Origin: a virus
Virus record (IMG/VR): IMGVR_UViG_3300017917_001903
Coordinates: 22,857-86,856 of that record
Reading direction: 5' to 3' (one strand)
Length of the DNA: 64,000 nucleotides
Shown: piece after piece, positions 6,041 to 64,000 of the stretch
Layout: every line of letters starts with the position of its first letter
Position numbering within the stretch: position 1 is the first letter of the stretch
Notes under the pieces: generated by a model
What the model was told of the DNA's origin: nothing
Seen by the model: the letters and a program-made list of their open reading frames with translations, nothing else
Databases searched by the model: none
Made by a program: the position numbers and the translations under genes

Positions 6041-6574
6041 GTGGTAGACTCAGTAAAACAATACAACTTAGCTGGCGTAGCTGCTAATGTTGAGTTAGGC
6101 AAGCAAGGTCCTGTTATTGATGGCAGTAACGCTAGTGTAATTGCTTTCAAAGACAAAAACGGTAATGCTAGTGTAATTACAGTAGCGGCAGGCACAGATC
6201 CTACTCATGCTGTCACATTAGATCAACTAGGCGACATCAGCGGCAACGCACTATCTTATGTAACTACTACAGTTAACTACAATTCAGGTAATGTTGTTGT
6301 AGGAAACATTAGTGCAGATAGCTTTGTTCATAGTGTGAGCGTAGAAAAGGGTGCCGGTAACTGGGCCGGTGCTGATGCAAATACAGAAATCACTGTAGGC
6401 GATACAGGTAGTGCCACTAGATTGTTTAGTGGGTTTGATACTTCTATGCAGGTCACACTTGATACAAAATACAAGTATGCAAGCGCCGACACAATTAGTA
6501 TTTTTGTTACACAGGGCGGCGCAAGTTCTGGTACTGCAAAAGTAACTATTTGGTATTCAGGAACTATTAACTAA
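6041..6574 (+). CDS. Virion-type protein, tandem paralog 2
   Basis: 177 aa from GTG 6041, with AGGAG upstream. It shares the N-terminal block (KQYNLAGVAANVELGKQG) and C-terminal block (YKYASADTISIFVTQGGASSG) with the gene before it, so the pair arose by duplication and has diverged in the middle. Probably a structural protein. Its TAA overlaps the next ATG (TAATG). Confidence 0.65.
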   Translation: MVDSVKQYNLAGVAANVELGKQGPVIDGSNASVIAFKDKNGNASVITVAAGTDPTHAVTLDQLGDISGNALSYVTTTVNYNSGNVVVGNISADSFVHSVSVEKGAGNWAGADANTEITVGDTGSATRLFSGFDTSMQVTLDTKYKYASADTISIFVTQGGASSGTAKVTIWYSGTIN

Positions 6575-7485
6575 TGAAAATATACGATATTCTAGAAGGC
6601 AAGGGCGAAAACCGCGAACTGTGGGATCGCATCAAATCAAAAGGTGTAGTGCCCAGCATCGATCGCGAACGTTACACTGACATGTCCGGTGAAGGACTAG
6701 AAGGTCCGTTCCGTATGAAGAACGGACAAGTATTGTACTACGATCCAAAAGAAGGCAAGTACTATAATCGAGATACAGATATGTACGTTGACTACGATGA
6801 CTATCGTGCAATGAATGAAGAAGATGCATACGACAAAGATGTTAAACCTTCTGGCAAGCCACATGATAAAGAAGCGGCTGCAAAACGTGCTAAGGCAGCG
6901 GCATTGGCAGCAGCTAAAAAAGCCAAAGAGCAAGGTATGGCGGAAGCTAGCGGCGACCAAGTTAAAAAAGTGTTTAAGAAAAATGGCGAGCCAGTAGGCG
7001 AAGTTGGTATTGATCCAGAAGCAAGTCCTGGTAACGGTCAATGGTACATGAAGTGCTATGCTTACAATATAGACAATTCAGGCTACGACTCATACGAAGA
7101 AGCTGTAGAAGAATTAAAATATTGTTTAAAGCAAGGTGTAGCCGAAGGCGACAAGCGTCCAGACTACGTAGTTAAAGCCAGCGACAAACCAAAGAAGGTT
7201 AAGCCAAGCATGGGCGGATCAAGCCCCCATCCTTATCAGGGCAAGCTAGTAGGTGCCACAGAAGCAGAAGTTGGTAGCACAGACTATCAATGGACACACG
7301 GTAAAAAGCCAAGTGGTCAAGGTAGCTGGTTCTTTGTTGCACATCGTGGCGGTGTTAACTTCTACAAAGATGTAGAGGGTGAAGATTACATTCAGCTACA
7401 TGGCATGAGCTACGGAGAAGCAAAGAAAGCAGCCATCAAGTGGGCAAAGTCCAAAGGACACACAAGCCTATTTGTAGGAACCTAA
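6574..7485 (+). CDS. Head-type structural protein with leader MKIYDILEG
   Basis: 303 aa. The N-terminus MKIYDILE ends in ILE, matching the [IL]-x-E cleavage rule of the T4 prohead protease, as in other proteins here. The middle has a charged Ala/Lys helix (about 100-125). There are two further x-A-E sites (GMAEA, GVAEG) and repeated small domains (NGEPVGEVGIDPEASPGNG; GSWFFVAHRGGVNFY). Family unknown; I infer a head-internal or scaffold-associated protein processed at several sites. Last gene before a strong terminator. Confidence 0.6.
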   Translation: MKIYDILEGKGENRELWDRIKSKGVVPSIDRERYTDMSGEGLEGPFRMKNGQVLYYDPKEGKYYNRDTDMYVDYDDYRAMNEEDAYDKDVKPSGKPHDKEAAAKRAKAAALAAAKKAKEQGMAEASGDQVKKVFKKNGEPVGEVGIDPEASPGNGQWYMKCYAYNIDNSGYDSYEEAVEELKYCLKQGVAEGDKRPDYVVKASDKPKKVKPSMGGSSPHPYQGKLVGATEAEVGSTDYQWTHGKKPSGQGSWFFVAHRGGVNFYKDVEGEDYIQLHGMSYGEAKKAAIKWAKSKGHTSLFVGT

Positions 7486-10211: not shown

Positions 10212-10613
10212 ATGAGAATTAACGATATTACTATTGTTGAAAGTCCGCAAGTAGGCGACTACTTTGATATAGAGTTAAACGAATCAGAGATAGCATCAAC
10301 ATGGATTCATTCTGTTAACGGCAATAATATTGTAATACACGCAGACAATGAATTGTTTGAAGCTCTTACACAAGAAGCTGAATATCAAGGTCGCGACGTT
10401 CCGCTAGGTAAGCCTATGCAGGGCGATGTTAAGAAGTTTAAAGTATATGTAAAAAATCCCAAGGGTAACGTAGTTAAAGTTAACTTTGGTGATCCTAATA
10501 TGCGTATCAAGAAATCAAACCCCGCACGTCGTAAGAGCTTCCGTGCTAGACACAACTGCGACAATCCGGGTCCACGTCATAAAGCACGTTACTGGTCTTG
10601 CCGCAAGTGGTAA
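10212..10613 (+). CDS. Virion-type protein with basic, Cys-containing tail
   Basis: 133 aa. N-terminus MRINDITIVES ends in IVE, the candidate prohead-protease site. The C-terminal third (FGDPNMRIKKSNPARRKS, then RARHNCDNPGPRHKARYWSC) is a block I recall as widely shared by T4-like cyanophage and marine phage structural proteins; it is basic with two Cys and may bind nucleic acid or zinc. Late promoter upstream. Function not established. Confidence 0.65.
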   Translation: MRINDITIVESPQVGDYFDIELNESEIASTWIHSVNGNNIVIHADNELFEALTQEAEYQGRDVPLGKPMQGDVKKFKVYVKNPKGNVVKVNFGDPNMRIKKSNPARRKSFRARHNCDNPGPRHKARYWSCRKW

Positions 10614-11810: not shown

Positions 11811-12318
11811 AGGTATTGGTAAAGCAATTGCTGACTTATATTATACCGACGAAGTTGTAGGCTTTAGTCGTAGCAACGGATACGACATTGTTCATCCTGG
11901 TAATGTAGCACGAATAATTGCTGAAAGTGCCGAATGTGATATATTTGTTAATAATGCTTATCACGACTTTGTTCAATGTGATTTGCTAGATGGGATATAC
12001 GATTTATGGAAAAATGACCCAACTAAAACTATTGTTAACATCATTAGCAGAGCACGTTATGGATTAGGCAAAGCAAAGTTCTATGGCCAGACTAAAATGG
12101 AATTATACAGCAAAGCTAAAACTATGATGTTTAGTGACAAACGCTGTCGTATTATTAACATTAATCCGGGTTATGTAAAAACAGATATGGTAGCACATGT
12201 ACCTGACACTGTTAAGATGCTAACACCAGAACAGTTAGCAACTATGATCAAATGGTGCTTAGACCAACCCCAAGGTGTTGAGGTTGGTGAACTAAGTGTT
12301 TGGTGTACTACTCTTTAG
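11782..12318 (+). CDS. Short-chain dehydrogenase/reductase (SDR)
   Basis: 178 aa, short for the family (usually about 250). MKIAITGHTKGIGKAIAD is the dinucleotide-binding glycine motif, FVNNAYHD the NNAG-like motif, and NIISRARYGLGKAKFYGQTK gives Ser and the YxxxK catalytic pair. NINPGYVKTDM is the conserved PG-[FY]-V-x-T-x-M segment. It should reduce or oxidise a small alcohol or sugar with NAD(P). Missing C-terminal parts make substrate prediction unsafe. The gene ends tail to tail with iscU, overlapping 11 bases. Confidence 0.8.
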   Translation: MKIAITGHTKGIGKAIADLYYTDEVVGFSRSNGYDIVHPGNVARIIAESAECDIFVNNAYHDFVQCDLLDGIYDLWKNDPTKTIVNIISRARYGLGKAKFYGQTKMELYSKAKTMMFSDKRCRIININPGYVKTDMVAHVPDTVKMLTPEQLATMIKWCLDQPQGVEVGELSVWCTTL

Positions 12319-12697
12319 CACAACTGCACTTGGCTTCGTAGTCGCTGATTGCTGCTTTAATAGCATCCTCAGCTAGTATTGAGCAATGTATCTTTACCGG
12401 GGGGAGTGCTAGTTCTTCTGCAATTTGGGTATTTTTGATTGTCTTAGCATCATCTAGTGTACGTCCTTTAACCCATTCTGTAACAAGACTTGAGCTTGCA
12501 ATCGCTGATCCACAACCATACGTTTTAAATTTTGCATCAGTAATAATACCATCTTCAACTTTAATTTGAAGCTTCATAACGTCGCCGCATGCTGGTGCAC
12601 CAACCATACCTGTTCCCACTGACGGATCGCCCTTTTCAAAACTACCAACATTTCGGGGATTTTCGTAGTGGTCAATGACTTGATTTGAATAAGCCAT
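12308..12697 (-). CDS. iscU: IscU Fe-S cluster assembly scaffold
   Basis: 129 aa, full length and very close to the classic bacterial IscU. MAYSNQVIDHYENPRNVGSF at the start; ligand Cys37 and Asp39 in APACGDVMK, Cys62 in KTYGCGSAIASSS, the HscA-binding LPPVK at 98-102 and Cys105 in KIHCSILAEDAIKAAI. IscU builds a [2Fe-2S] cluster with sulfur from IscS and passes it to apo-proteins. No iscS, hscA or fdx is nearby, so it would have to work with host partners. I start at ATG 12697, where all IscU proteins start. The tail CSCAKE adds two Cys. A GATAAATA late box is 27 bases upstream. A metabolic gene of host origin is likely. Confidence 0.95.
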   Translation of the reverse strand: MAYSNQVIDHYENPRNVGSFEKGDPSVGTGMVGAPACGDVMKLQIKVEDGIITDAKFKTYGCGSAIASSSLVTEWVKGRTLDDAKTIKNTQIAEELALPPVKIHCSILAEDAIKAAISDYEAKCSCAKE

Positions 12698-22714: not shown

Positions 22715-22909
22715 TTATTTTAGCGGCTTTTTAAGCCCAATTTGTTGTGTTTTTACAACACGCATAATCAGGAAAAACGCTGAAATAAGCAATTGTAGCA
22801 GAACAAACCAACCAAACCCAATATGGAAACCATCAATAATCCATACAGCTAGTGCTACTGCTAAACTAACTGCACAGCTCTTGGCTAATATAGCCCACAC
22901 TTCTTGCAT
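22715..22909 (-). CDS. Small membrane protein
   Basis: 64 aa from ATG 22909 (GGAG upstream). Two hydrophobic helices (SCAVSLAVALAVWIIDGF and GWFVLLQLLISAFFLIMRVV) and a basic C-terminus (KTQQIGLKKPLK). This layout also fits a small holin, but its position next to a middle gene is not diagnostic. Confidence 0.6.
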   Translation of the reverse strand: MQEVWAILAKSCAVSLAVALAVWIIDGFHIGFGWFVLLQLLISAFFLIMRVVKTQQIGLKKPLK

Positions 22910-29765: not shown

Positions 29766-30275
29766 TTATCCTACTAGAACTTTGCACACGCTGTTCATAA
29801 CACTAGCAATGCGACCAATGTCTTTTAGCTGATCTAAACTATAACCAGCTTCCTTAAGTGTATTAAAGTGACTCTTTACACAGAAGTGACACTTGCCCAC
29901 AATGCTAGCTGCTAGGCTGTAGGCTTCAAAGTTTTCCTTTGAAGTACCACCATGTGTAGCAATAGCATTCATACGCAGTCCAGGACTCATGCCTTTGAAC
30001 GCATCATCAACCATTTCATTATATGGGTACCAAATGTTATTTTGAGCCATGATACTAGCTGCTGTCATAGCAGCGTCGCGCTCTTGCTCGTTGGTCATAC
30101 CACCTAAGATAATGCCAACGATCTTTCCGTTGCCTGTAGCAACTGCGGCAGCTAACGCACAACCTTCTGCAACAACTGGATCTAAACTTGAACGTAATAG
30201 TACACCATCCAAATTTAGTCTAGTATCTTTTGCGTAGTCGGGTAGAGCCAACTTAAACCCTTCTATCCAATTCAT
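29766..30275 (-). CDS. AhpD-like alkylhydroperoxidase
   Basis: 169 aa, all helical. VGKCHFCVKSH gives the redox CxxC (C129, C132) and the following His136 of the AhpD catalytic site. AhpD reduces peroxides itself and, in mycobacteria, recharges AhpC. Last gene of a three-gene operon with AhpC and a TerC protein, joined by a 4-base ATGA overlap, which supports a working AhpC/AhpD pair. Confidence 0.88.
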   Translation of the reverse strand: MNWIEGFKLALPDYAKDTRLNLDGVLLRSSLDPVVAEGCALAAAVATGNGKIVGIILGGMTNEQERDAAMTAASIMAQNNIWYPYNEMVDDAFKGMSPGLRMNAIATHGGTSKENFEAYSLAASIVGKCHFCVKSHFNTLKEAGYSLDQLKDIGRIASVMNSVCKVLVG

Positions 30276-30865
30276 ATTGTTTCTCCTATAGGGGCATGTT
30301 CCATAAATGCCTCCTTGACAAACGGCTCGTTAACCATCATCTGAATAGCAACAATAACTAACACGGCTGCACCAACCCAAATAGTCTTTGGCCAACGCAA
30401 CATGATCTTAGATACCATTGTACTACCAAACAAGATGATTGGTACACTAACCAATAATCCAAATATAATCAACCACCAGTTACCACCTGCGGCACCAGCA
30501 ATAGCCAGTGCATTGTCTAATCCCATGACAGCGTCGGCCCAAACGATAGTACCCATAGCACCCCAGAAGGTACTTGCGGCTGTGACATTGTGTTCACCAT
30601 CTTCTGTGGTTACTAACTTGTAAGCAATGTATAACAATGCAATGCCACCAACAAGTCTAAGTCCAGGAATCATTAGCAAGTAAGTCAATGCCGCAACACT
30701 TAAGAAGCGAACAGCAACAGCACCAAATGTTCCCCAGAGCATAGCCTTGCGGCGCAACTCCGGTGGTAGCTTGTTAGCCGCCATAGCAATAACCAAAGCG
30801 TTCTCGCCGCCAAGCACCACATCAATTAAAATGATGGCTCCAAGAGCCCAGAGTAGTTCTAGCAT
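30272..30865 (-). CDS. TerC-family membrane protein
   Basis: 197 aa, about six to seven membrane helices. The family signature repeats occur twice: IDVVLGGENALVIAMAANKLP and ADAVMGLDNALAIAGAAGG, with acidic residues inside the membrane. TerC/YjbE proteins are linked to tellurite resistance and, in several bacteria, manganese export or metallation of secreted proteins. TAATG and ATGA junctions bind it to ahpC and ahpD. Together the three genes look like a peroxide and metal stress module. Confidence 0.88.
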   Translation of the reverse strand: MLELLWALGAIILIDVVLGGENALVIAMAANKLPPELRRKAMLWGTFGAVAVRFLSVAALTYLLMIPGLRLVGGIALLYIAYKLVTTEDGEHNVTAASTFWGAMGTIVWADAVMGLDNALAIAGAAGGNWWLIIFGLLVSVPIILFGSTMVSKIMLRWPKTIWVGAAVLVIVAIQMMVNEPFVKEAFMEHAPIGETI

Positions 30866-31410
30866 TATAGTGTATCACCACCAATTGGACGGCTGCATGG
30901 GCATAGTTCGCCTGTCTGTAGTGCATCTAAAACACGAAGTGTTTCTTCAGGGCTACGACCAACGTCTAGATTGTTAACAGTTACGTGCTGGATAACATTG
31001 TCTGGGTCAACAATGAATGTTGCACGAAGTGCGGCGCCAGCTGGTGCATAGAAAATGCCTAGCTGATTAGCAAGACTTAATTCGTCACGAGCAACGTCTG
31101 CAAACATCCAACTGTTTGTCTTCTTTAGATCTTCATGGGCTGCACGCCAAGCTAGCTTACAGAACTCGTTGTCTGTGCTGCCAACTAATAGTACCGCGTC
31201 GCGATCAGCAAAGTCACGGTTGAGCTTGTCGTAGGCTACAATTTCTGTTGGGCATACGAAAGTAAAGTCCTTTGGATAGAACACAATTACCTTCCACTTA
31301 CCTTCAAAGCTCTTTTCTGTGATGGTCTCAAAAGCACCATCTGGTGTTAGTGCGCCTGGCTTAACACCTGTTACTGCAAAAGTTTCAATTTTATCACCAA
31401 CTGTTTTCAT
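30865..31410 (-). CDS. ahpC: 2-Cys peroxiredoxin (AhpC/Prx1)
   Basis: 181 aa, full length. FYPKDFTFVCPTEI places the peroxidatic Cys53 with Thr50; the resolving Cys is in ELCPCSRP (C170 or C172). GSTDNEFCKLAW and the Arg in GAALRATFIVDP complete the active site. It reduces hydrogen peroxide and organic peroxides. In the operon it comes first, followed by TerC and AhpD. RBS GGAG upstream. Such an operon in a T4-like phage is unusual. Confidence 0.93.
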   Translation of the reverse strand: MKTVGDKIETFAVTGVKPGALTPDGAFETITEKSFEGKWKVIVFYPKDFTFVCPTEIVAYDKLNRDFADRDAVLLVGSTDNEFCKLAWRAAHEDLKKTNSWMFADVARDELSLANQLGIFYAPAGAALRATFIVDPDNVIQHVTVNNLDVGRSPEETLRVLDALQTGELCPCSRPIGGDTL

Positions 31411-50643: not shown

Positions 50644-50964
50644 TTACCAACTAATGTTCCAAGTGAGTGTGTTGTTTGATGTATTGTTTGTTCCAATATA
50701 TACAGCGTATCCTAAGTTAACAAAATAATCTTTAACATAGTTAATTTGATCTAGTTTTGTTGCATCATCCGTTACGCCATTCCATGCATTATAGTATGAA
50801 ACATTACTGGTCATTGTAGTGCCGCTAGTAACGTTTGCATAAAGTATGCCTGCATCAATATTTCCTAATACAGCACTTTCAATGCTGCGAACTTCGCTAT
50901 GAATGACGCTGTTGTTTCTAGAATCTCTTCTAGCAGTTGTTGCATTTACAAAAATGTTCGCCAT
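50644..50964 (-). CDS. Small structural protein
   Basis: 106 aa, Asn/Thr/Ser-rich with a YVKDYFVNLGYAVYIGTNN segment and ending LTWNISW. Compact beta protein typical of fibre or neck accessories. Starts at the upstream stop (TAATG). Confidence 0.6.
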   Translation of the reverse strand: MANIFVNATTARRDSRNNSVIHSEVRSIESAVLGNIDAGILYANVTSGTTMTSNVSYYNAWNGVTDDATKLDQINYVKDYFVNLGYAVYIGTNNTSNNTLTWNISW

Positions 50965-51293
50965 TACACATCTGCCTTAATATCTTGCATGGCTTGATTA
51001 CCAGCCATCTTACCAACATCAACTGACGCTTCAGCATCTTTCATGTTGTCGGGTAATTCACCCTTAGGAACAATTTTTTCGCTATCAACAGAAGTAACAA
51101 ATTCGCTGTCATTTAATGCAGCAATCAATTCGTCGTCTGTGGTTACATAACCTTGTTTAGCCAGCAGACTTTTAAATCGTTCTGTGCTAATCTCTTTAAG
51201 GCCTTTATTCATAACGCGAATAAGGAGATCCTGTACAGCAACAATCAAGTCGTTGTAATAACTCTCTTTAACAAAGAGCTCGTATAGTCTCAT
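50964..51293 (-). CDS. T4-like hypothetical protein
   Basis: 109 aa. Starts MRLYELFVKESYY, in the style of the short leaders discussed elsewhere but without an [IL]-x-E site. AKQGYVTTDDELIAALNDSEFV resembles an HTH or SAM-like helical domain. C-terminus NQAMQDIKADV. One-base overlaps on both sides link it to virion genes. Confidence 0.6.
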   Translation of the reverse strand: MRLYELFVKESYYNDLIVAVQDLLIRVMNKGLKEISTERFKSLLAKQGYVTTDDELIAALNDSEFVTSVDSEKIVPKGELPDNMKDAEASVDVGKMAGNQAMQDIKADV

Positions 51294-52645
51294 TATACTG
51301 CTGCTCGACCTAGTGGTTCGTCTTCTGGACCGGCTGCTGCGGGTTCGTTAACGTCAACAGTTGGCTCTTCTTCGGGCATATCTGGTTCTGCTAGACTAGC
51401 AGGACTTGGCTCACCTAAGCCGCCAGTGTCACCTAAGCCACCAACTGCTTCGCCGCCTGTTAGGCTTGCTACAGAATTATCAACACCTGCTTTAGCTGCC
51501 TTAGCAGATTCTAAGTGTTGATTTAGTACTTGTGTTGTGCTATCAACAAAGCTCTGTGCAGCTTGTGCGCCCATTTCGCCGCGCATCTTATCAGCAATAG
51601 CTGGAAGGTCTTCATTAATCATACGACCTAGACGTTCAATCTGATCTTGAATATCATCAGCTAATGCACGAATAGCCATTACAACTTCGGCCTGCTCAAC
51701 GTCAACTTCTTCGTTTAGTAGATCGTCAACTAAGTTGCCTAAGATACTTTCATTCTTTGAACCAGAAATCTTATGTGCAGTATCCTTGCTCATCTTAACT
51801 GGATGCATCTTACCTGAGCCTCTTGGAAACTCAAATTCTTTAGCACCACTACGAGCAGCATCTGCCGCTGCCTGGTTATATGCATTCTGTTCAGCAATCT
51901 TGCGGCCAAACATTTGGATGCCAGCTACTAGTGCTGCTTCGTCGAGGCTGTTTAAGAACTCAACTACAGCATCTCGGCTTTTGCCGCTTACTTTAGCAAA
52001 GCCATTTAGTTTTTCTTCAATAGCTTGATAGCTTGTAGTGTCTTTTAGCTCAACACCTGCTTCTTTGGCTAGAACACGAAGAACTTGTTCAGCAACATTT
52101 TTAGAACTTAGTTCGTTATGTGCTGGCATGCCAGTAATGGTATTACCAACTGTTGCACCCATGTTGCCGCCGGCTAGGCCTTCACCCATGCTGCACTCGT
52201 CCATGTACTTTTTAGCAGCGGTAATAACGATTGGCATAACGTGACCGTCATCGTATGCAAAGCGGTTATCCATTCTATAACGATTCATACACTCTGATGT
52301 AGCTTCATCTACAGTATATCCACTATCCATAAGTTGGCGTACTGTACTTTCAATCATTTCCTTCATAGCTAAGTATGCAGGACTTTCAGCATACATGCCT
52401 TCGTTGATCATTGTTTCAACTACGTCCTTAATACCAAGGAACTTAGCATAATCAGGTTCTAAGTGAAACTTCACGTTTGAACCACGAAGTGTTACTAACG
52501 CTTTTTCAGCATTTTCTTTAAGTGCTACTAGTTTAGCCTTCTTGGGGAAACTAGCAGTGATGCTAATACCAAAATGCTCACTGAGCAACTTGTTTAGCTT
52601 TGATAATTTTTTACTTGACGGTTGTTTGAACTCTTTTAAGTACAT
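51293..52645 (-). CDS. Large head- or tail-associated protein
   Basis: 450 aa. N-terminal basic helical domain, then a long helical region (QAIEEKLNGFAKVSGKSRD, MAIRALADDIQDQIERLGRM, EMGAQAAQSFVDSTTQVLNQ) and an acidic Pro/Gly/Glu-rich tail from about 400. Similar proteins are annotated as structural in T4-like cyanophages, from memory. Late promoter 34 bases upstream. Confidence 0.6.
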   Translation of the reverse strand: MYLKEFKQPSSKKLSKLNKLLSEHFGISITASFPKKAKLVALKENAEKALVTLRGSNVKFHLEPDYAKFLGIKDVVETMINEGMYAESPAYLAMKEMIESTVRQLMDSGYTVDEATSECMNRYRMDNRFAYDDGHVMPIVITAAKKYMDECSMGEGLAGGNMGATVGNTITGMPAHNELSSKNVAEQVLRVLAKEAGVELKDTTSYQAIEEKLNGFAKVSGKSRDAVVEFLNSLDEAALVAGIQMFGRKIAEQNAYNQAAADAARSGAKEFEFPRGSGKMHPVKMSKDTAHKISGSKNESILGNLVDDLLNEEVDVEQAEVVMAIRALADDIQDQIERLGRMINEDLPAIADKMRGEMGAQAAQSFVDSTTQVLNQHLESAKAAKAGVDNSVASLTGGEAVGGLGDTGGLGEPSPASLAEPDMPEEEPTVDVNEPAAAGPEDEPLGRAAV

Positions 52646-54958: not shown

Positions 54959-55529
54959 TGTTCTTAAACCTAAAGTTCATACTAATAACAATACGCAAAT
55001 CATCACTGTGATTCTTTGTAACAAAGTGTGGCATAGTAGAGTCAAACATCACAAACTTGTTAGGTTCTGCTTTAACTACTTCTTGTCTAATAATATAAGG
55101 ATTTGGCTTATATTGAAATACAAAGTCACCACTGTTAGGTGGAACTTTAACATAAAATGCTGCACTAACATGTGCGCCGCCTATGTAGTTGTCTGCTGAT
55201 TCGTGACTGTGTAAGTTAGTCATTTCACCTTTGGCATGTACCACTGACCAAAAAGCAGAATTAGGATCGCCGCCTTCTTGTCCTTGCCAGCATAATTCAA
55301 TGTCATCGCCAAACTCTTTAAACCACTCTTGTTCAAGTGTGCGTGCAATACGCTGTACTTGCGGAGTAAAATTAATTCTAATATCTTCGTAACGTATATC
55401 GTCGGCCCAATGAGCAATATTGCGTCCTTCATTGTAGTTACGCAATATCATAGCTTCAAGATCTGATAGGTCCTCATTGAGAGAACCTACCAGATATTCT
55501 GCCTTGTATAGTGTTACACGATCTGCCAT
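54945..55529 (-). CDS. 2OG-Fe(II) oxygenase-like protein (TIGR02466 style)
   Basis: 194 aa. MTNLHSHESADNYIGGAHVSAAFYVKVP has the HxH/HxD-like iron region and GDFVFQYKP the sheet; MFDSTMPHFVTKNHSDDLRIVISMNFRF gives the distal His and Arg. Resembles the 35532 protein. Fourth oxygenase-like protein of the window. Iron site less standard, so activity is uncertain. Confidence 0.65.
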   Translation of the reverse strand: MADRVTLYKAEYLVGSLNEDLSDLEAMILRNYNEGRNIAHWADDIRYEDIRINFTPQVQRIARTLEQEWFKEFGDDIELCWQGQEGGDPNSAFWSVVHAKGEMTNLHSHESADNYIGGAHVSAAFYVKVPPNSGDFVFQYKPNPYIIRQEVVKAEPNKFVMFDSTMPHFVTKNHSDDLRIVISMNFRFKNNEDN

Positions 55530-56806
55530 TAGTGTACAGTTGGTAGTTGACTATAATCTACTTCATAGAAACCGTCAATGCCTAAACGCACTGCTGAATC
55601 GTACTTAGTACCTACTAGCTCTTGAGCTAATACGCCTGTATAAGTTACAGTGTCGTTCAAGTAGTTGTATGAGTAGAAATTAATACCATCTACTGTAGCA
55701 ACCTTAGCAATGTTTTCTTTTAGACGCTGGTCGCTCTTAAAGAACTTCTTAGCGCCTTTGCTTACGTCCTTAGTAGTTTTTGATGCGCCCTTGCTGATGT
55801 CATTACCTACATCAGATGCACCTTTGGCAACATCATTTGCTGCTTTGTTGGCAGCATCGGCTGCATCTTTGGCTGCTTTCTCTGCTGCTTTAGCTGCATC
55901 GTCTGCTGCCTTCTGTGCGGCAGCGGCTTGCTCTTTAGCAATGCGATCTGCTTCTGCAGCCGCATCTGCGGCTGCTTTGGCTGCGTCATCTGCTGCCTTA
56001 GCAGCTTGGTTAGCAGTATCGATAGCTGGATTTAGATCAACGTTCATGTTAACATCGCCTTCTAAACCAACTAGTAATGCAGCATCGCCTGAAATACCTA
56101 CACTGACTTCGCCGTCTTTGTATGTAGCATGTGCTTCACCTTCAGCGCCAACTTGTGCGCCAATACTTGCGCCAGCACTACCACTAACTTCTGCGCTGCC
56201 TACTGCGGTTTTGATCTTAGCTGAACCGCCAGCATCTACCCCAACACTAGCACCAGCAATAGCGCCGCCGCTTACGCTTGCACCGTTCTCACCAATTGAT
56301 GCGCTACCGCCTGCTCTAGCATATGCATCTGCATTAGCGTTAACACCACCTTGTGCTGAAACGCCTGCTAGGTCAACCCCGCCAATACCAACACTTGCAT
56401 CACCGCTTGCACTTGCACCTGCGCTAGCACTTGCTTCTGCGCCAACGTTTGCACCGGCCGATGCGTTCTTACCGTCCCATCCACCGTGTGCTTCTGCACT
56501 TGCTTCTACGCTAGCTTCTGCACTGGCTTGTCCCGAAGCGCCTGCTGTTGCTGTGGCATCTACACCACCTGCAATTTCTTGCTTGGCGTGTGCTTCTGCT
56601 GAACCTTCTGCGCTAGCATTAGCTGACACACCTGCACTTGCACCTGCACTTGCATATGAACCGTCTACACCTGCACTTGCACCAGCATGGGCTTCGCCAC
56701 CTGCGCTTGCTGACCCACCAGCACTTGCGCCAGCTTTGTCATTACCTGTTGATGTGGATGCACCAGTTGATGCGCCTCCGCTTACTCCTACCTTTTCTTC
56801 AGCCAT
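55529..56806 (-). CDS. Gly/Ala/Ser-repeat fibre with S74 chaperone domain
   Basis: 425 aa. Residues 8-250 are imperfect repeats of small residues (GASAGG, ASAEGSAEAH, GANVGAEASASAG), a silk-like or beta-helix pattern. 250-340 is an Ala-rich coiled coil (DDAAKAAADAAAEADRIAKE). The last 70 residues, SDQRLKENIAKVATVDG, then YTGVLAQELVG, form an S74 intramolecular chaperone with the Ser and Lys for self-cleavage. Trimeric fibre is likely. Followed by an oxygenase gene. Confidence 0.88.
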   Translation of the reverse strand: MAEEKVGVSGGASTGASTSTGNDKAGASAGGSASAGGEAHAGASAGVDGSYASAGASAGVSANASAEGSAEAHAKQEIAGGVDATATAGASGQASAEASVEASAEAHGGWDGKNASAGANVGAEASASAGASASGDASVGIGGVDLAGVSAQGGVNANADAYARAGGSASIGENGASVSGGAIAGASVGVDAGGSAKIKTAVGSAEVSGSAGASIGAQVGAEGEAHATYKDGEVSVGISGDAALLVGLEGDVNMNVDLNPAIDTANQAAKAADDAAKAAADAAAEADRIAKEQAAAAQKAADDAAKAAEKAAKDAADAANKAANDVAKGASDVGNDISKGASKTTKDVSKGAKKFFKSDQRLKENIAKVATVDGINFYSYNYLNDTVTYTGVLAQELVGTKYDSAVRLGIDGFYEVDYSQLPTVH

Positions 56807-56818
56807 TGTGTGTACCTC

Positions 56819-59581
56819 TTATTTTTTAAGTGTTAATTCAATCGTTAGATATGAATTGCCGTCTGCGCCGGTGACAGATTTTTCTCCGGCTACTTCATAG
56901 TCAGGCATTAGCCTTGTAGCTCTGCGTGCCAGTGTTCTATAAAGTTTAATTCTACTCTCATCATCTGCTTTACTAGCGATGATAACGCCTGTTGGCTTTT
57001 GCTGTTCTACTTCTTTTTGTAAAATAGCTGCCACTGTACTAAACACACGAACTGCGTCACCTGTACCAGTTTTGCCAGTTTTGGGCTTACCAGTTTTCAT
57101 ATCAGTGAGGTCAAAATGTATTTCTAGTTTATTAGACATATCTGGACTTTGACGATTGAACACTTGTACGCGATATAATTGGCCCGAATCTGTTTGGAAG
57201 CGGTATGCACGTTTGTCTGGTGTTTTTACATTTTGGATATAGTCGTATGGACTATCAGCTAGCTCGTTAACAATTGAGTATAGTCTGCCAGGCTTTTTAT
57301 TTTCTACAGGAAAGACTGGGTCTGGACTTTTAAAGTCTTGCTTGCGCATGATTGTTTTAGCTACTAAATCAAGCTCTTGGGTATCTCTGTCCCATTTTAA
57401 AACAAATGGCATGTTAACATTAGTTTGCATGTCTTTCATTACAGCTTCAGCATCAGGTCCCATCTGTGCAATAGGTTTACCCCAACGTTTAAACTCTTGT
57501 TTAAACAAACGTGTCAGTTCAGCAGGTGTAATTGGTTTTACATTACGAGCATCGTTAACACGATCAATGAAATGACGAGTAAAGTTTACATCAATACCAA
57601 CCTTGCTGAATAGCTTGTCAGCATATTGTTCGATAACATCTAAATCAGCCTGTGAAACATCTTCGCCTAATTTGCCTGTGTGAATTTCTGGCTCTTCGTG
57701 TGATCCGCCAATATCTTTCCATGCAACGCCCAGTCGGTCTAGTGTCTTTTTCATTTTCTCCATTTCTTCTGGTGAAGCAAATGTAATAGTCATGTCCGAT
57801 GGTCCAACACCTAACTCATGCTTGTCGTAGTTTGCAAGACTAGTATAGTGTTGCCCTAGCTTATAAAAGTCCATGTCATCGGATTTATCTACAACTAGTG
57901 TGTATTTTGGTGCTGTTAAGTTTGAATGTTGATAGCCAGGCTCGTCGGGTTCTACTGGTGCTTTCTCGCCCATGTGCTTAAAATATTGAACTTGGCGCTC
58001 ACGCTTTTCTGCACCAGCTTTGCTAGGATATGTACCTAAATTCTTTTTACCGTCTTTACTGTATAATCTGTATCCGCCTTTTACTTTGCGAATAGTTTCG
58101 TCAACACCTGCTCCTAGATACTTATCCAATGTTGCTTTAACATCACTAATGTTGCCCACGTGGCCTTTATACTTAACACCAATGCCGCCGGCATTAGTCC
58201 ACTTCTCGAGATACTTAGGATAGTCGTCAATAAGAATGTTTGGTGTACCATCTGGCTGTGTAGCAAACTGTGCTTTGTCGCCGGTGAAGTGCATGCCTTT
58301 AGGTTGGATCTTTAGATACTTACGTACCCATGCTGCTTTGTGTTTAGCACTGCCTTCACGGTCATACTTAAGTGGCGAACTGAGAATGTACCAGTCGCCG
58401 CCGCTCATTTGATTGACCATTGCGATAAGTTGATCTGCTTGATCATACTTAGGCAAAGTATAAAAGAAATCAGTGCCAGAAAATGATGCCATTGCATCTT
58501 CAATATCTTGTAATGCTAGCGCACGCGGTTCTGCGTGCCCTGTTGCAGCCGTAACACCAGCATAGAAGTTAGCAAGTACGCCGTCCATGTCTACGTAAAC
58601 TTTTGGCTTGCCTTGTGGTGCTTCCTCGTTGCGGATGCCTTTGCTCTTAGTACCGCCTTGACGTCTAATTGCGTTTAATTCATCATATGCAGAAACAACT
58701 GTGTTTAGAGTATTAGACAACTGCTTAACATGTTGTGCTGCACTACGGAATGCTTGTCCATGATCGACTTCTAAATCTTTTGCTAAACTTGATGCTTCTC
58801 TGCGAGCCTTGTTGCGCAATCCAGCCAAGCTATAACGGCCAGCACCACCGAGGACTAATACCTCAGTGTTGTCCATGGGGGCATCTTTATCTAATCTATA
58901 GATGACTTTACTGTCTACATCTTCTTCAGTTACACTTTTTTGTAACTGTGCTTTACTGATCCAATCACGTGCTTGTGCAGTTACTGGTGCGTCAATAAAC
59001 CTGTCTACTCTTTTCAGTGGAGTATTAAAATCTGGATTCTCATCGTTGATTACTTCAACGAAGTTTTCGCCAAACACTTCAGCTAGCTGGACTTTGTTTT
59101 CCTGTACTTGCTTGTGAGACTTCAAAACAATTTCTGATGGAACTTTTCTATCACGCATTAAGTTTCGTTGTAGCGCAATTTTTAAACTGGTGTTAACAAA
59201 CACCATCATTGTTTGATAGCCAATTGCTTCTAACTCAATCTTCAGCTTGACCATCTTGTTTACATCTTTAGCAGTGCCATCAATGATAAGACCTAAGCGA
59301 CCATCTAGATACATGTCTTGCTTTTTCTTAGTAATGTCTTTAGCACGCTGACGTGCAACATCACGTTCTGGTTGCTCTTCGGGCGGCATTTCAAAACTTA
59401 GATTACGTTTACGCATTAAATATTCAAATGCGTCATCGCTATTAACTACTTTTAGTCCACGTGAAACAAGTCCTAGTTGAGCAGCTACATAACTCTTGCC
59501 GCTACCAGGGCCGCCGGCCAAAAAGATAGCTTTAAAAATTCCAGGGTCGTTAGGACCTTCTTGTAAGTCAGTAAATCTCAT
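56819..59581 (-). CDS. 920-aa kinase/phosphatase fusion, head-type leader
   Basis: 920 aa. Leader MRFTDLQEG with LQE site. Residues 15-200: P-loop kinase (AIFLAGGPGSGKSYVAAQ, then LGLIIDGTAKD). About 325-500: HAD-type 5'(3')-nucleotidase with YVDMDGVLANFYAGV and NILIDDYPKYLEKW. From about 650, NFTRHFIDRVNDARNVKPIT and FVLKWDRDTQELDLVAKTIM, a domain I recall from phage proteins, possibly nuclease-like. The N-terminal kinase plus HAD domain order recalls T4 polynucleotide kinase-phosphatase. A DNA- or RNA-end repair enzyme carried in the head is a hypothesis. Confidence 0.7.
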   Translation of the reverse strand: MRFTDLQEGPNDPGIFKAIFLAGGPGSGKSYVAAQLGLVSRGLKVVNSDDAFEYLMRKRNLSFEMPPEEQPERDVARQRAKDITKKKQDMYLDGRLGLIIDGTAKDVNKMVKLKIELEAIGYQTMMVFVNTSLKIALQRNLMRDRKVPSEIVLKSHKQVQENKVQLAEVFGENFVEVINDENPDFNTPLKRVDRFIDAPVTAQARDWISKAQLQKSVTEEDVDSKVIYRLDKDAPMDNTEVLVLGGAGRYSLAGLRNKARREASSLAKDLEVDHGQAFRSAAQHVKQLSNTLNTVVSAYDELNAIRRQGGTKSKGIRNEEAPQGKPKVYVDMDGVLANFYAGVTAATGHAEPRALALQDIEDAMASFSGTDFFYTLPKYDQADQLIAMVNQMSGGDWYILSSPLKYDREGSAKHKAAWVRKYLKIQPKGMHFTGDKAQFATQPDGTPNILIDDYPKYLEKWTNAGGIGVKYKGHVGNISDVKATLDKYLGAGVDETIRKVKGGYRLYSKDGKKNLGTYPSKAGAEKRERQVQYFKHMGEKAPVEPDEPGYQHSNLTAPKYTLVVDKSDDMDFYKLGQHYTSLANYDKHELGVGPSDMTITFASPEEMEKMKKTLDRLGVAWKDIGGSHEEPEIHTGKLGEDVSQADLDVIEQYADKLFSKVGIDVNFTRHFIDRVNDARNVKPITPAELTRLFKQEFKRWGKPIAQMGPDAEAVMKDMQTNVNMPFVLKWDRDTQELDLVAKTIMRKQDFKSPDPVFPVENKKPGRLYSIVNELADSPYDYIQNVKTPDKRAYRFQTDSGQLYRVQVFNRQSPDMSNKLEIHFDLTDMKTGKPKTGKTGTGDAVRVFSTVAAILQKEVEQQKPTGVIIASKADDESRIKLYRTLARRATRLMPDYEVAGEKSVTGADGNSYLTIELTLKK

Positions 59582-59628: not shown

Positions 59629-60504
59629 TTAAATAATTTTACTATGCAGGTCTGTTTTTGTTCTATCCCATTGAAGATCAGACACAGGACAACGTGAACA
59701 CACATCTTCAGGTGCATGAATCTGAGACCAGCTGTCTGCATTGTGGTCAGACAGCAAATCGTAAGGCACATAGTCTCTTAAGAATTGCCAGCTACTGTTG
59801 TATAAATTTTTAGATTCAACAACTTTTAACAACATTGCCGTCATTGGGCATTTGTAGATTTTGCCGTCTTTAATGTGCGGTGTAGGACATAAGCATTTTT
59901 TAAATGCATCTTCTTTAGAATTATTAAATCTCACAGGTAACTCGTGTTCATCTAGCAATGGATATTTCCATTCTATGCCCGAGTTATATGTAAAGCGAAT
60001 ACCAATTCTATTGTAAATTGCTATACGATCATATTTTTGTGTGATGCTGTGTTTACATAAAAATCGTTTAACTTCATCCGCTGGTATGTTTAAAAACTCA
60101 GCTATACTATTGCATAAATTTGTTATGTACTTAGAATCAATTTTAGGATCATAGTGTACACTAATTGACACTAATAGTTTAGGATCGGTGTCTATTACTT
60201 CTTTAAGCCATTTGTTTTTATGTAGTAGTAAACCGTTGGTAGTAAGTGTATACTTTTTTGCAGGCGCAAGTTTTTTAATCAACTTGGGCAAGTGGGGATA
60301 CATTAATGTTTCCCCACCGGCTATTTCTATATGAGCTACTTCAAAACGATCAAATAAAATATCTAAATCTCTATCCCAGTGTACTTCATCTGGTATGTTT
60401 CTAGTTTCTAAATGATTAGAGTAATTAACACAACCTCTACAAGACAGATTGCAATTAAATGTAGGATGATATACTACATCGTTGAGAAGAATTTTTTCCG
60501 GCAT
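59629..60504 (-). CDS. Radical SAM enzyme
   Basis: 291 aa. YHPTFNCNLSCRGCVNYS has CxxxCxxC (C18, C22, C25), HIEIAGGETLMYP the GGE motif, KYTLTTNGLLL and ISVHYDP later barrel motifs. The C-terminal Cys set (CLCPTPHIKDGKIYKCPMTA and VCSRCPVSD) suggests SPASM-type auxiliary clusters. Substrate unknown; it sits between two head-type genes. Confidence 0.88.
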   Translation of the reverse strand: MPEKILLNDVVYHPTFNCNLSCRGCVNYSNHLETRNIPDEVHWDRDLDILFDRFEVAHIEIAGGETLMYPHLPKLIKKLAPAKKYTLTTNGLLLHKNKWLKEVIDTDPKLLVSISVHYDPKIDSKYITNLCNSIAEFLNIPADEVKRFLCKHSITQKYDRIAIYNRIGIRFTYNSGIEWKYPLLDEHELPVRFNNSKEDAFKKCLCPTPHIKDGKIYKCPMTAMLLKVVESKNLYNSSWQFLRDYVPYDLLSDHNADSWSQIHAPEDVCSRCPVSDLQWDRTKTDLHSKII

Positions 60505-60507
60505 AGA

Positions 60508-61077
60508 TCACGATGTTAATCTTGCGTTAATTATTTCCCAATTGATTATGCGCCAAATATTATCTAGATATTTGCTTTTGTCGTGTTCGTAGTCTAGTGC
60601 CCAGGCATGTTCCCACCAGTCGACTAATAATGCAATATCATTTTTAATTTCATGGTTGGCGATAGTTTTAATCTCGCCCTTCTTACTGAGGTATACCCAA
60701 CCGCTACCTTGTATAGCCATAGCGGCTTCTTTAAACTTATCTTTAAAGTTTTCAAAACTTTCATAATGAGCCATGATAAGACTTGAAGATAGACCGTGAG
60801 GTCTGTTACCGCTTACCGGTTTCTTAAATTGTGGGAACAGTACATTATGTAAAAATGCGCCAGCTTCATTAAAATCTGGGTCACCATCGCTAGCATTAAA
60901 ACGTTCTACATAACCTTTGTGTAATTTGTTATAGTGATACTTCATCGCTTCTTCGCTGATCACAGGCTCAAGGTCGTCGAGCTCGTATGGCAAACGCTCA
61001 CGCACTAGCCATGGCCTATTACCAATACTCATTATTGATGATGGCTTTGCACCTTCCTCTAAGTGACTTAATTTCAT
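60508..61077 (-). CDS. Fe/Mn superoxide dismutase with head-type leader
   Basis: 189 aa. The leader MKLSHLEEG (LEE) precedes a full SOD: LPYELDDLEPVISEEAMKYHYNKLHKGYV with metal ligand His48, GAFLHNVLF (His77), FKEAAMAIQGSGWVYLS and LLVDWWEHAWALDYEHDK with Asp153 and His157. All four metal ligands are kept, so it may be active; the usual Trp/Gln environment is partly changed. SOD turns superoxide into oxygen and peroxide, the substrate of the AhpC/AhpD pair encoded at 29766-31410. Confidence 0.85.
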   Translation of the reverse strand: MKLSHLEEGAKPSSIMSIGNRPWLVRERLPYELDDLEPVISEEAMKYHYNKLHKGYVERFNASDGDPDFNEAGAFLHNVLFPQFKKPVSGNRPHGLSSSLIMAHYESFENFKDKFKEAAMAIQGSGWVYLSKKGEIKTIANHEIKNDIALLVDWWEHAWALDYEHDKSKYLDNIWRIINWEIINARLTS

Positions 61078-63087
61078 TTAGATTTTTCCAGATTTCTTAA
61101 GATTTAACTGCAAGAACATTTCTGTTGGGCCTGCCTTGGTTGGAATAAAGCTAACACCAGGGGCGCCAGCGTGTGGACCAGCAAAGAAGTCAGCAAATTC
61201 TTGTGCGCTAGTAATGTAAACTGTTTTCTTAGCGTTAAGGACTAAGCCAAGCAATGCAGCAAAGCCGCTTTTTTCTTTGTAGTCTTCATAGTTTGCAATA
61301 GCAAAATCTTTAAGTACAGCTGATGCGTTTGAGTTATTTTTAAAGCTGGTAGCAATAAACTTTGCAGCCTTGTCACTCATAAATGCACCGTATACTGCAT
61401 AAGCAATATTATATCTGCGTTGATCGCCTACTGGTAAATCATTATTCATTAACTGCACAGCATTGCCTAAACCTAAACTTGCATTAGATTGCATGTGTTG
61501 CATGATGCTAGGTATATCGTTTTGGAACTTAGACAAGATTGCTAGTACCTGAGGCTGACTTAATGGATTCATACCCAAACGTCCGCCGCCGCTGCTGGTC
61601 TCGCTACTACTTGCTTTAAGTTCTACTAGCTCATTGTCAACAACAATGTCGCCGCCGCCTTCGCTGAGCTTAATTCTGTTACTTAACATAGCAAGAGCAA
61701 ACTCACCTGGGCCTTTCTTTTGCTTGCCAGCACCATAAGGCATCAATGCTTTAAACACATCAAACGCCATTTGGCTCTTAAAGATATTAGCAAAACTATT
61801 TACGCCTGGCTTTTTAAGTTCTTCAACATTTATTGCTGTACCTGACTCTTCAAGATCATCCAGGAACACCTTGATTGTTTTGTAATCGCTTTCAACTTGA
61901 TAGATAACTTTGGTTAAAACTTTTGTAGCTGCTTCTTTGTTCATTGCTGTTTCATCGGCAATAGGCTTTGCTACTACGTTACCAATAACACTTTGAATAT
62001 GATCGCTGTTTAAGATACGCCAGATCTGGTCAACTAGTTTAGCATCACGCTCATCGCTGATGTCTAGTGTCTTGATGATTTCAGCAATCTTTGCTTGTTC
62101 AGCAGCAAGGTCATCATACTCTCTTAGCTTTACACTTTCGTTGAGATTGAGTTGTTTTATTAACATAGGATGCATCTTCTTTACATAGTTTCTTAGTATT
62201 GGTCGTAGGCAAACACCATCACCGTGTTCTGCTCGCGCACGACGAAAATCATTAATCATATTTGGATCAGGTATCGCAAAAAATGCGTTCATCTGACCTT
62301 TAATATCTGTAGCTGGGAAAGGCTTACTTAGTAAATCATTTAGTATTCTAACTTTACTGTTGTCAGGAACGCTGTCACGTAGTACGCTTTCCTTAACACT
62401 TTCAGGTACACAGTTAGGAACAGTTTTACCGCCCTTCTTCTTTGTGCCTACCGGCTTGTAACCATCCCAGCATGGATTGTCCTTGGGATTACGCAAACTC
62501 TTTTTGCGCTCATTGGTTTTTTTCTTACCGGCGCAATGTGCCTTTTGACTGAAGCCTTTGGGATTAGAACAGTTGATGCTGTCCTTGTATTTTTTTGACC
62601 ATGCTTCGTGGATGACTGCGCTGTCAACAGTTGCTAACTTTGTTAACTGCTCACCTAAGCTAAGTTGTTCTAGTTCGTTGATAAGACTTTCCATTTCAGG
62701 ATCCTGATCAATGTTAAATTTTTCATCTGGTTCAACTACGTCATATTTGTTTAGTTTGTTCTTGATAACAACCGCGTCTGGATTGTTTTCTTTATCACCA
62801 ATTGGTGTAACTACTGTGCCAACTAGCTTGCCACTTTTATCTTTAATCTCGGTATCAACAGGAATGTCTTTTACAGGCTTTGTAATAGTAGTTGGTTGCT
62901 CTGGCTCTTTTACTAGTGGTGCTTTTTGTGTTGTTGGGCTAGCTGCCTGACTTTTGGTAGTAGGACTAGCTGATGTTGCTTTGGCAACACTGCCAGTTTG
63001 TTGTTGGCCAACAGGTGTAGGTGTACCTGGCTGTAAACCATATTCCATAAGCAAATGCTCTAGAGTTTGTATATTTTTAAATTTCAT
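61078..63087 (-). CDS. Large head-type protein with nuclease-like core
   Basis: 669 aa. Leader MKFKNIQTLEHLLMEYG (LME). Residues 20-130 are Pro/Thr-rich. About 165-225 a Cys-rich block (INCSNPKGFSQKAHC, NPCWDGYKPVGTKKKGGKTV) recurs in T4-like marine phages. Near 485, GGGDIVVDNELVELKASSS looks like a PD-(D/E)XK core (D-x(n)-E-x-K). The C-terminal half is helical. Virion or injected protein with nuclease activity is a hypothesis. Confidence 0.6.
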   Translation of the reverse strand: MKFKNIQTLEHLLMEYGLQPGTPTPVGQQQTGSVAKATSASPTTKSQAASPTTQKAPLVKEPEQPTTITKPVKDIPVDTEIKDKSGKLVGTVVTPIGDKENNPDAVVIKNKLNKYDVVEPDEKFNIDQDPEMESLINELEQLSLGEQLTKLATVDSAVIHEAWSKKYKDSINCSNPKGFSQKAHCAGKKKTNERKKSLRNPKDNPCWDGYKPVGTKKKGGKTVPNCVPESVKESVLRDSVPDNSKVRILNDLLSKPFPATDIKGQMNAFFAIPDPNMINDFRRARAEHGDGVCLRPILRNYVKKMHPMLIKQLNLNESVKLREYDDLAAEQAKIAEIIKTLDISDERDAKLVDQIWRILNSDHIQSVIGNVVAKPIADETAMNKEAATKVLTKVIYQVESDYKTIKVFLDDLEESGTAINVEELKKPGVNSFANIFKSQMAFDVFKALMPYGAGKQKKGPGEFALAMLSNRIKLSEGGGDIVVDNELVELKASSSETSSGGGRLGMNPLSQPQVLAILSKFQNDIPSIMQHMQSNASLGLGNAVQLMNNDLPVGDQRRYNIAYAVYGAFMSDKAAKFIATSFKNNSNASAVLKDFAIANYEDYKEKSGFAALLGLVLNAKKTVYITSAQEFADFFAGPHAGAPGVSFIPTKAGPTEMFLQLNLKKSGKI

Positions 63088-63094
63088 TTTAATC

Positions 63095-63388
63095 TCATTT
63101 GTTCATGGACTTATTCATAGACTGCAATCTACGACTTGTTGGATTTACTCTTTTTGTTCGTCTAGACTTAAGGGACATTCTTTTACCCATTTTTGCCTTG
63201 CTTCGCTTTAAGGTTAGACGTTTTTTAAAATCTACTGGAGCACTGCATTGACTTGCTTTGCTAACTACACGACCTTTACGACGGCCGCCGGTACAACGAA
63301 CTGCACGTTTGATTTTGCTGCCTGTACGGCGCCACACCATTCTTGCTTCGACTAATGTATCTTCATTGTGTAGTTCGTTTATTTGCAT
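63095..63388 (-). CDS. Basic T4-like head protein
   Basis: 97 aa, Lys/Arg about 30 percent. Leader MQINELHNEDTLVEAR (LVE). RRTGSKIKRAVRCTGGRRKG and ASQCSAPVDFKKR form a block I recall from many T4-like phages, unassigned. Likely a DNA-binding internal protein. Confidence 0.65.
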   Translation of the reverse strand: MQINELHNEDTLVEARMVWRRTGSKIKRAVRCTGGRRKGRVVSKASQCSAPVDFKKRLTLKRSKAKMGKRMSLKSRRTKRVNPTSRRLQSMNKSMNK

Positions 63389-63633: not shown

Positions 63634-64000
63634 TTATAGCAGATCCTGTTTTGTGAATTCCATGTTCACTGTGTTTTTGGTATCAATAGTACCATCATTC
63701 AACACAATACCATGCAACTCGTCTTGTAAAGTCTGTATACTATGCACAGCAGCTCGCTCAAAAGCAAACTTATAAATCCATCCCGCACCTGTGATGGTAG
63801 GAGCACCATAGTTTTCTAAAACCAGGCTACCAGTACCATTTAAGTAAACAGGGTCATTCATCATAATAGGCATAGCTCTCAAACCAATTACTTGTACAAC
63901 ACTTTCAAAGTCTTTTTGACTATTATCGTTGTAGTTGCCTGTGCGTGTAATGTCTAAGGTGGTGTACAGTGTATAGAACTCAATATTACCAGTTACTACT
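63634..64000 (-). CDS. Virion structural protein, 5' end beyond window
   Basis: Partial: open to the right edge, C-terminal 121 residues seen. GNIEFYTLYTTLDITRTGNY, then FESVVQVIGLRAMPIMMNDP and GWIYKFAFERAA are typical of a conserved T4-like marine phage structural protein (baseplate or neck, unassigned). A short reading from TTG 63882 would be a truncation and is not used. Confidence 0.65.
   Translation of the reverse strand, partial: VVTGNIEFYTLYTTLDITRTGNYNDNSQKDFESVVQVIGLRAMPIMMNDPVYLNGTGSLVLENYGAPTITGAGWIYKFAFERAAVHSIQTLQDELHGIVLNDGTIDTKNTVNMEFTKQDLL

Follow-up and report, generated by a model that had tools for sequence, protein, structure and literature searches.

A superoxide dismutase with a predicted capsid-targeting leader in large phages of the T4 superfamily

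The superoxide dismutase gene and its relatives

We analyzed a 64,000-nucleotide stretch of viral DNA (the window), which is positions 22,857 to 86,856 of IMG/VR record IMGVR_UViG_3300017917_001903, and we focused on a gene for an iron/manganese superoxide dismutase (SOD) and on the short leader that precedes the enzyme. A sequence-only reading had placed an SOD at 60508-61077, and an open reading frame (ORF) occupies exactly that interval on the minus strand (Table 1). Its ATG directly follows the upstream gene's stop codon (CTAAATG), and a GGA lies about 9 bases 5' of the ATG. The protein matches the Pfam domains Sod_Fe_C (E = 1.7e-22) and Sod_Fe_N (E = 1.1e-11), both above the gathering cutoff. 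When we compared it to PDB with phmmer, 155 distinct sequences were found, and nearly all of the 60 matches listed are named as SODs. Structure prediction, which the sequence-only reading had proposed as a check, gave an SOD fold: the AlphaFold2 model, built with 43 phage sequences as input, has a pLDDT of 90.7 and is well folded except for residues 1-20, which are poorly ordered, and the top Foldseek matches listed from PDB were all Fe/Mn SODs (E = 3e-14, TM of about 0.8).

We found 250 relatives of this SOD on IMG/VR viral contigs and used the best 80 loci for the counts of leaders and neighboring genes. The distant SODs in Staphylococcus, Salmonella, Listeria, Enterococcus, and other phage records (H13-H27), which resemble ordinary host SODs, were left out. 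In a phylogenetic tree with 34 bacterial SODs, sampled by pattern matches only, the phage SODs, among them the homologs in Pseudomonas phage PA5oct and in Vibrio phage 2.275.O, formed one group (100/100), which also held two sequences from contigs of metagenome-assembled genomes. The PA5oct and Vibrio SODs are on long branches, and their exact placement is unsure. We also considered whether the gene might be a host contaminant and rejected this explanation, given the 86.9-kb virus record, the fully supported phage group, and the relatives on 250 viral contigs.

A leader with a prohead protease motif

The protein begins with MKLSHLEE/GAK (a slash marks the predicted cut), which matches the [LI]xE/ site of the T4 gp21 type and lies in the disordered leader. 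In T4, gp21 cuts C-terminal to the Glu in L/I-x-E (PMC9026906). Ten N-terminal residues of IPIII are enough for head targeting, and the role of the capsid-targeting sequence (CTS) is established (PMC9026906, PMC7697877).

Nearly all of the best 80 relatives have similar N-terminal extensions, such as MKVNDLLIE/S, MKLNDFLIE/A, MAYNFIQKFIVE/G, or MREIIDLVE/A. The motif [LI]xE[AGS] occurs within residues 5-22 in 41 of 50 distinct N-termini, compared with 29 of 339 (8.6%) other ORFs from the same loci (Fisher test, 9e-28; the rows are related, and this is not a true probability). Several of the nine N-termini without the motif reflect the wrong choice of start codon. With starts corrected, the strict motif [LI]xE/[AGS] was present in 36 of 42 distinct leaders and [LI]xE was present in 41; shuffling each leader gave means of 2.0 (maximum 8) and 14.7 (maximum 28), respectively, and because the sequences are related and not independent, these figures should not be taken as probabilities. 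Thus, the MKLSHLEE leader of the sequence-only reading is present, and its motif is found beyond chance. Could the leader be an artifact of ORF calling? We rejected this possibility: unlike the upstream ATG and the motif, the internal ATG (residue 16) is not conserved (it is Leu in L002 and L004).

Across the 42 distinct leaders, pairwise identity averages 0.30 for the leader and 0.62 for the enzyme part, and the predicted cut varies in position from residue 8 to residue 15. For a fast-changing segment that holds one processing motif, selection for processing is the best explanation. Most members keep the leader in just 3 of 52 protein families of these phages: the SOD (49/56), a kinase/nucleotidase protein (7/7), and a 109-amino-acid family (3/4).

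The active site

We aligned 45 phage SODs, including those of PA5oct and Vibrio phage 2.275.O, and numbered positions by the window's protein (Met = 1). The four metal ligands that had been recognized from the sequence alone (H48, H77, D153, and H157) are all there, and like the second-sphere residues Y56, H142, and E156, they do not vary across the alignment. Because of this invariance, the protein is very probably a working enzyme rather than a structural protein. Two other positions have changed. The usual His30 equivalent, which is the second His of HxxxHH, is an invariant Leu (L52); the region reads HYNKLH in the window's SOD, so that the middle His is gone and the last is retained, and both are gone in most relatives. 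The partner Tyr is lost as well: its position, two residues beyond the WEHA motif, is occupied by Ala (A160).

In most SodFM3 and SodFM4 enzymes, the water-coordinating C-terminal residue is His, which is more often tied to a preference for iron (PMC10172142). H142 provides the C-terminal water-coordinating His of SodFM4; another mark of that subfamily is the loss of the last His of HXXXHH, which the window's SOD retains and most relatives lack. The metal preference of the phage SODs may lean towards iron, with low certainty.

Head assembly genes and a homolog in PA5oct

A relative with a longer record (G017, locus L050; 281,658 bases) encodes the SOD as well as the portal gp20, gp21 (PF03420, 6.8e-25), gp22, and gp23 (PF07068, 5.8e-99). 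Its capsid protein has a matching site, YLAE/SATAGA. Identity to the PA5oct counterparts is 67% for its capsid gene and 53% for its protease gene, and on this basis we place this phage group near Arenbergviridae; PA5oct likewise encodes a gp21-type prohead protease. G017 also encodes a nucleotidyltransferase-like protein (C1:174496-175641, minus strand; GRMNPPTIGH) with the leader MLLNELFE/AG, which is a further candidate for a packaged enzyme.

The SOD homolog in PA5oct is gp223 (YP_010678991.1), which is 41% identical to the window's protein over 153 amino acids and begins with MNDSIKKYISIAE/AASS. It is annotated as hypothetical, and its record carries the note ESI-MS/MS (electrospray ionization tandem mass spectrometry), whose meaning we took from the record and from the MIJ3 paper. 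Homologs of gp223 are also found in phages MIJ3, Paride, and Callisto, and those of MIJ3 and Callisto are annotated as sodB. In PA5oct, the proportion with a strict leader is 6 of 93 for proteins that were flagged by mass spectrometry (MS) and 2 of 269 for the rest (p = 0.0045). Among these six are the capsid protein and the SOD, along with homologs of the window's proteins at 51293-52645 and 50964-51293.

Is the SOD packaged?

We propose, with a probability of roughly 0.7, that the window encodes an intact Fe- (or Fe/Mn-) SOD of a large T4-superfamily phage of lake bacteria, that its precursor carries an 8-residue N-terminal CTS, and that the enzyme is packaged and co-ejected. As the prohead assembles, the leader would bind the scaffold core, and inside the prohead, the phage's gp21-type protease would cleave behind Glu8 (LEE/G). 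The mature SOD would remain with the DNA in the head. On infection of the next host, it would be ejected together with the DNA and would remove superoxide there ahead of phage gene expression. What we observe is the SOD fold with its conserved active site, the gp21-type leader kept by divergent relatives, gp21 and gp23 in a relative that has the SOD, and the MS flag in PA5oct; we infer the packaging, cleavage, ejection, activity, and benefit of the SOD. The benefit may be the protection of the phage's iron enzymes (ribonucleotide reductase [RNR] and the clients of Fe-S assembly) as well as of DNA. There is perhaps an even chance of a wider claim: that these large freshwater phages of the T4 superfamily, a widespread group, package active SOD via a CTS and inject it with their DNA as an immediate-early antioxidant that does not require gene expression.

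Several observations weigh against packaging. First, the window's record (86,856 bases) is a fragment that stops short of the gp20-gp23 cluster, so the phage's own protease was not seen, and packaging in this phage itself is a prediction. Second, the ESI-MS/MS flag in PA5oct extends to RNR, thymidylate synthase, ligase, and FtsH; soluble enzymes might therefore co-purify with particles, and the flag alone does not prove location in the virion. (According to the MIJ3 paper, PA5oct's FtsH, which was similarly flagged, had been annotated as structural.) Third, SODs without a leader occur (L012, L038, and Vibrio phage 2.275.O). Fourth, the SOD is near a homolog of IscA in 46 of the 80 loci and next to IscU in 26 (for example, L087:11643-12889), so that Fe-S assembly genes and the SOD recur together as a module.

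Two of the leaderless SODs have additional features. The SOD at L012:5878-6993 is fused at its C terminus to a domain of roughly 200 amino acids that has no match in Pfam or PHROG. The SOD of Vibrio phage 2.275.O (L102:3968-4537) has a C-terminal extension, MLDESVNIRHLINFISK, that contains an LxE/S motif. Members with such a C-terminal motif (in the Vibrio phage, ..MLDE/SVNIRHLINFISK) may instead rely on a tag at the C terminus.

In most relatives, then, the SOD is beside iscA or iscU and not beside head genes, which fits a cytoplasmic role: the SOD would be made during infection and would serve iron enzymes along with the phage's IscU/IscA, RNR, and AhpC/AhpD, and the N-terminal extension would be incidental or would serve some other interaction. 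The gene order at L065 (nrdA-iscA-iscU-iscA-SOD-...-nrdB-...-ahpC-ahpD) and the leaderless members are also consistent with this explanation. However, the rapidly diverging N terminus retains the gp21 motif in nearly all members, even those beside iscU, and a cytoplasmic enzyme would leave the MS flag on the PA5oct homolog unexplained. We consider a purely cytoplasmic role to be unlikely, although less so than the alternatives below.

The proximity to Fe-S assembly genes in most relatives also suggests that it is iron enzymes, rather than DNA, that are protected. The most likely role of the SOD, as judged from these comparisons, would be to shield enzymes that depend on iron, and perhaps DNA as well, against superoxide, at first through enzyme that the particle delivers. 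In the window, IscU is encoded at 12308-12697, away from the SOD, and 29766-31410 (minus strand) is an operon of an AhpD-family alkylhydroperoxidase, a TerC/YjbE-family metal transport protein, and an AhpC-type peroxiredoxin. At L022:5823-7211, iscU is split by about 890 intein-like bases (CLTSNALINTPTKSKKISELSVGDEVLAW).

The sequence-only reading had suggested that the SOD is packaged or, instead, that it had become a structural protein. Comparative sequence evidence supports the first idea well, for an SOD that is catalytically intact, and disfavors the second. Protection of DNA or protein at entry, which that reading also put forward, is plausible. Recruitment of the fold to a structural or decorative role in the head, with loss of the enzyme function, would account for the packaging leader, for the MS flag in PA5oct, and for the loss of the His30 equivalent and the partner Tyr, but a scaffold would not need the four ligands, His142, Tyr56, and Glu156, which are invariant in divergent members, so this seems very improbable. 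Even less probable is that the motif is present by chance or by inheritance, without processing: the sequences are related and their counts are not independent, and so short a motif occurs in 8.6% of ORFs, but the leaders vary in both length and sequence while the motif stays, which shuffling yields in about 2 of 42.

Neighboring genes

In the window and its closest relatives, the SOD gene is downstream of the gene at 61078-63087 and is near or next to the leader-bearing gene at 56819-59581; in the window, a radical S-adenosylmethionine (SAM) gene intervenes. The sequence-only reading had described the SOD as lying between a radical SAM gene and a head-type gene. Both neighbors are present, but the gene at 61078-63087 belongs to PHROG families of unknown function, and only its leader and its position mark it as head-type. 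The gene directly downstream of the SOD in the closest relatives has the leader MRFIDLQE/GP (7/7), and part of the window's 56819-59581 protein is homologous to an MS-flagged protein of PA5oct.

Elsewhere in the window, proteins at 6574-7485 (plus strand), 10212-10613 (plus strand), and 63095-63388 (minus strand) have gp21-type leaders (MKIYDILEG, MRINDITIVES, and MQINELHNEDTLVEA, respectively) and are candidates for internal head proteins. A highly repetitive protein at 55529-56806 (minus strand) is rich in Ala, Gly, and Ser, ends with a peptidase S74 chaperone domain, and is probably a tail fiber.

Table 1. Features of the SOD gene and of nearby genes in the window (a slash marks a predicted cut)
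Feature	Position	Strand	Basis
Fe/Mn SOD precursor, 189 amino acids	60508..61077	-	Pfam Sod_Fe_N/C, AlphaFold2 model, Foldseek
Predicted capsid-targeting leader MKLSHLEE, residues 1-8; putative cut after E8 (LEE/G)	61054..61077	-	Motif conservation, disorder in model, T4 likeness
Predicted mature SOD, residues 9-189	60511..61053	-	Folded core starts near residue 21-28
Metal ligand His48	60934..60936	-	Invariant in 45 aligned phage SODs
Metal ligand His77	60847..60849	-	Invariant in 45 aligned phage SODs
His142, C-terminal water-coordinating position	60652..60654	-	Invariant; C-terminal His type as in PMC10172142
Metal ligand Asp153	60619..60621	-	Invariant in 45 aligned phage SODs
Metal ligand His157	60607..60609	-	Invariant in 45 aligned phage SODs
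Radical SAM gene	59629-60504		PF04055, 3.5e-8
Large P-loop kinase/nucleotidase multidomain protein, leader MRFTDLQE/GP	56819..59581	-	Domains; leader kept by 7 of 7 in the family
Upstream co-directional gene, leader MKFKNIQTLEHLLME/YG (P1' not A, G, or S)	61078..63087	-	Adjoins SOD in closest relatives
109-amino-acid protein, leader MRLYELFVKE/S	50964..51293	-	Homolog of PA5oct 157529-157843 (MS-flagged, leader-bearing)
Virion structural protein, phrog_14154 (head and packaging)	51293..52645	-	Homolog of PA5oct 156341-157528 (MS-flagged, leader-bearing)
Structural protein, partial at window edge	63634..63999	-	41% identical to PA5oct 154760-155224 (annotated structural, MS-flagged)

Comparison with known systems

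T4-type and giant phages are already known to have capsid-targeting sequences and to inject internal proteins; what would be new here is the cargo enzyme, an SOD, on a packaging route that is itself known. We found no report of a bacteriophage-packaged or phage-encoded Fe/Mn SOD in the open-access papers that we searched, a set that misses many papers. If the prediction is correct, then a redox enzyme joins the known injected cargo, and the conserved [LI]xE/[AGS] leader would be a simple rule for spotting injected enzymes in the genomes of uncultured phages. The laboratory phages Paride and MIJ3 share the lineage, so the prediction can be tested now.

Among T4 proteins, IPII and IPIII start with MKTYQEFIAE/A, and gp24 starts with MAKINELLRE/S. 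The SOD resembles IPI, IPII, IPIII, and Alt in having a short leader that ends in [LI]xE/[AS], a gp21-type protease in the phage group, and a small soluble cargo. However, the known cargo of T4 is anti-restriction or ADP-ribosylating, whereas the SOD is a metalloenzyme of host-like metabolism. As for the homologs in PA5oct, MIJ3, Paride, and Callisto, the records do not present the SOD as packaged. SodFM enzymes with the C-terminal His share the fold, the ligands, and the C-terminal His water ligand with the phage SODs, but in the phage clade, the second His of HxxxHH is missing (HYNKL), and this clade is separate from the bacterial SODs that we sampled (100/100).

A245R of chlorovirus PBCV-1 has a fold and a metal that are unrelated to those of Fe/Mn SOD. 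It is a Cu/Zn SOD that is packaged in the virion, and lower superoxide in infected cells has been attributed to it (PMC7019647). PBCV-1 and the window's phage are alike in that the virus packages an SOD (as predicted for the latter), but PBCV-1 infects an alga and does not have the CTS/gp21 route. If the SOD is packaged, then oxidative stress at entry would be a barrier that these phages answer with a pre-made enzyme; the chloroviruses, with their unrelated SOD, may do likewise.
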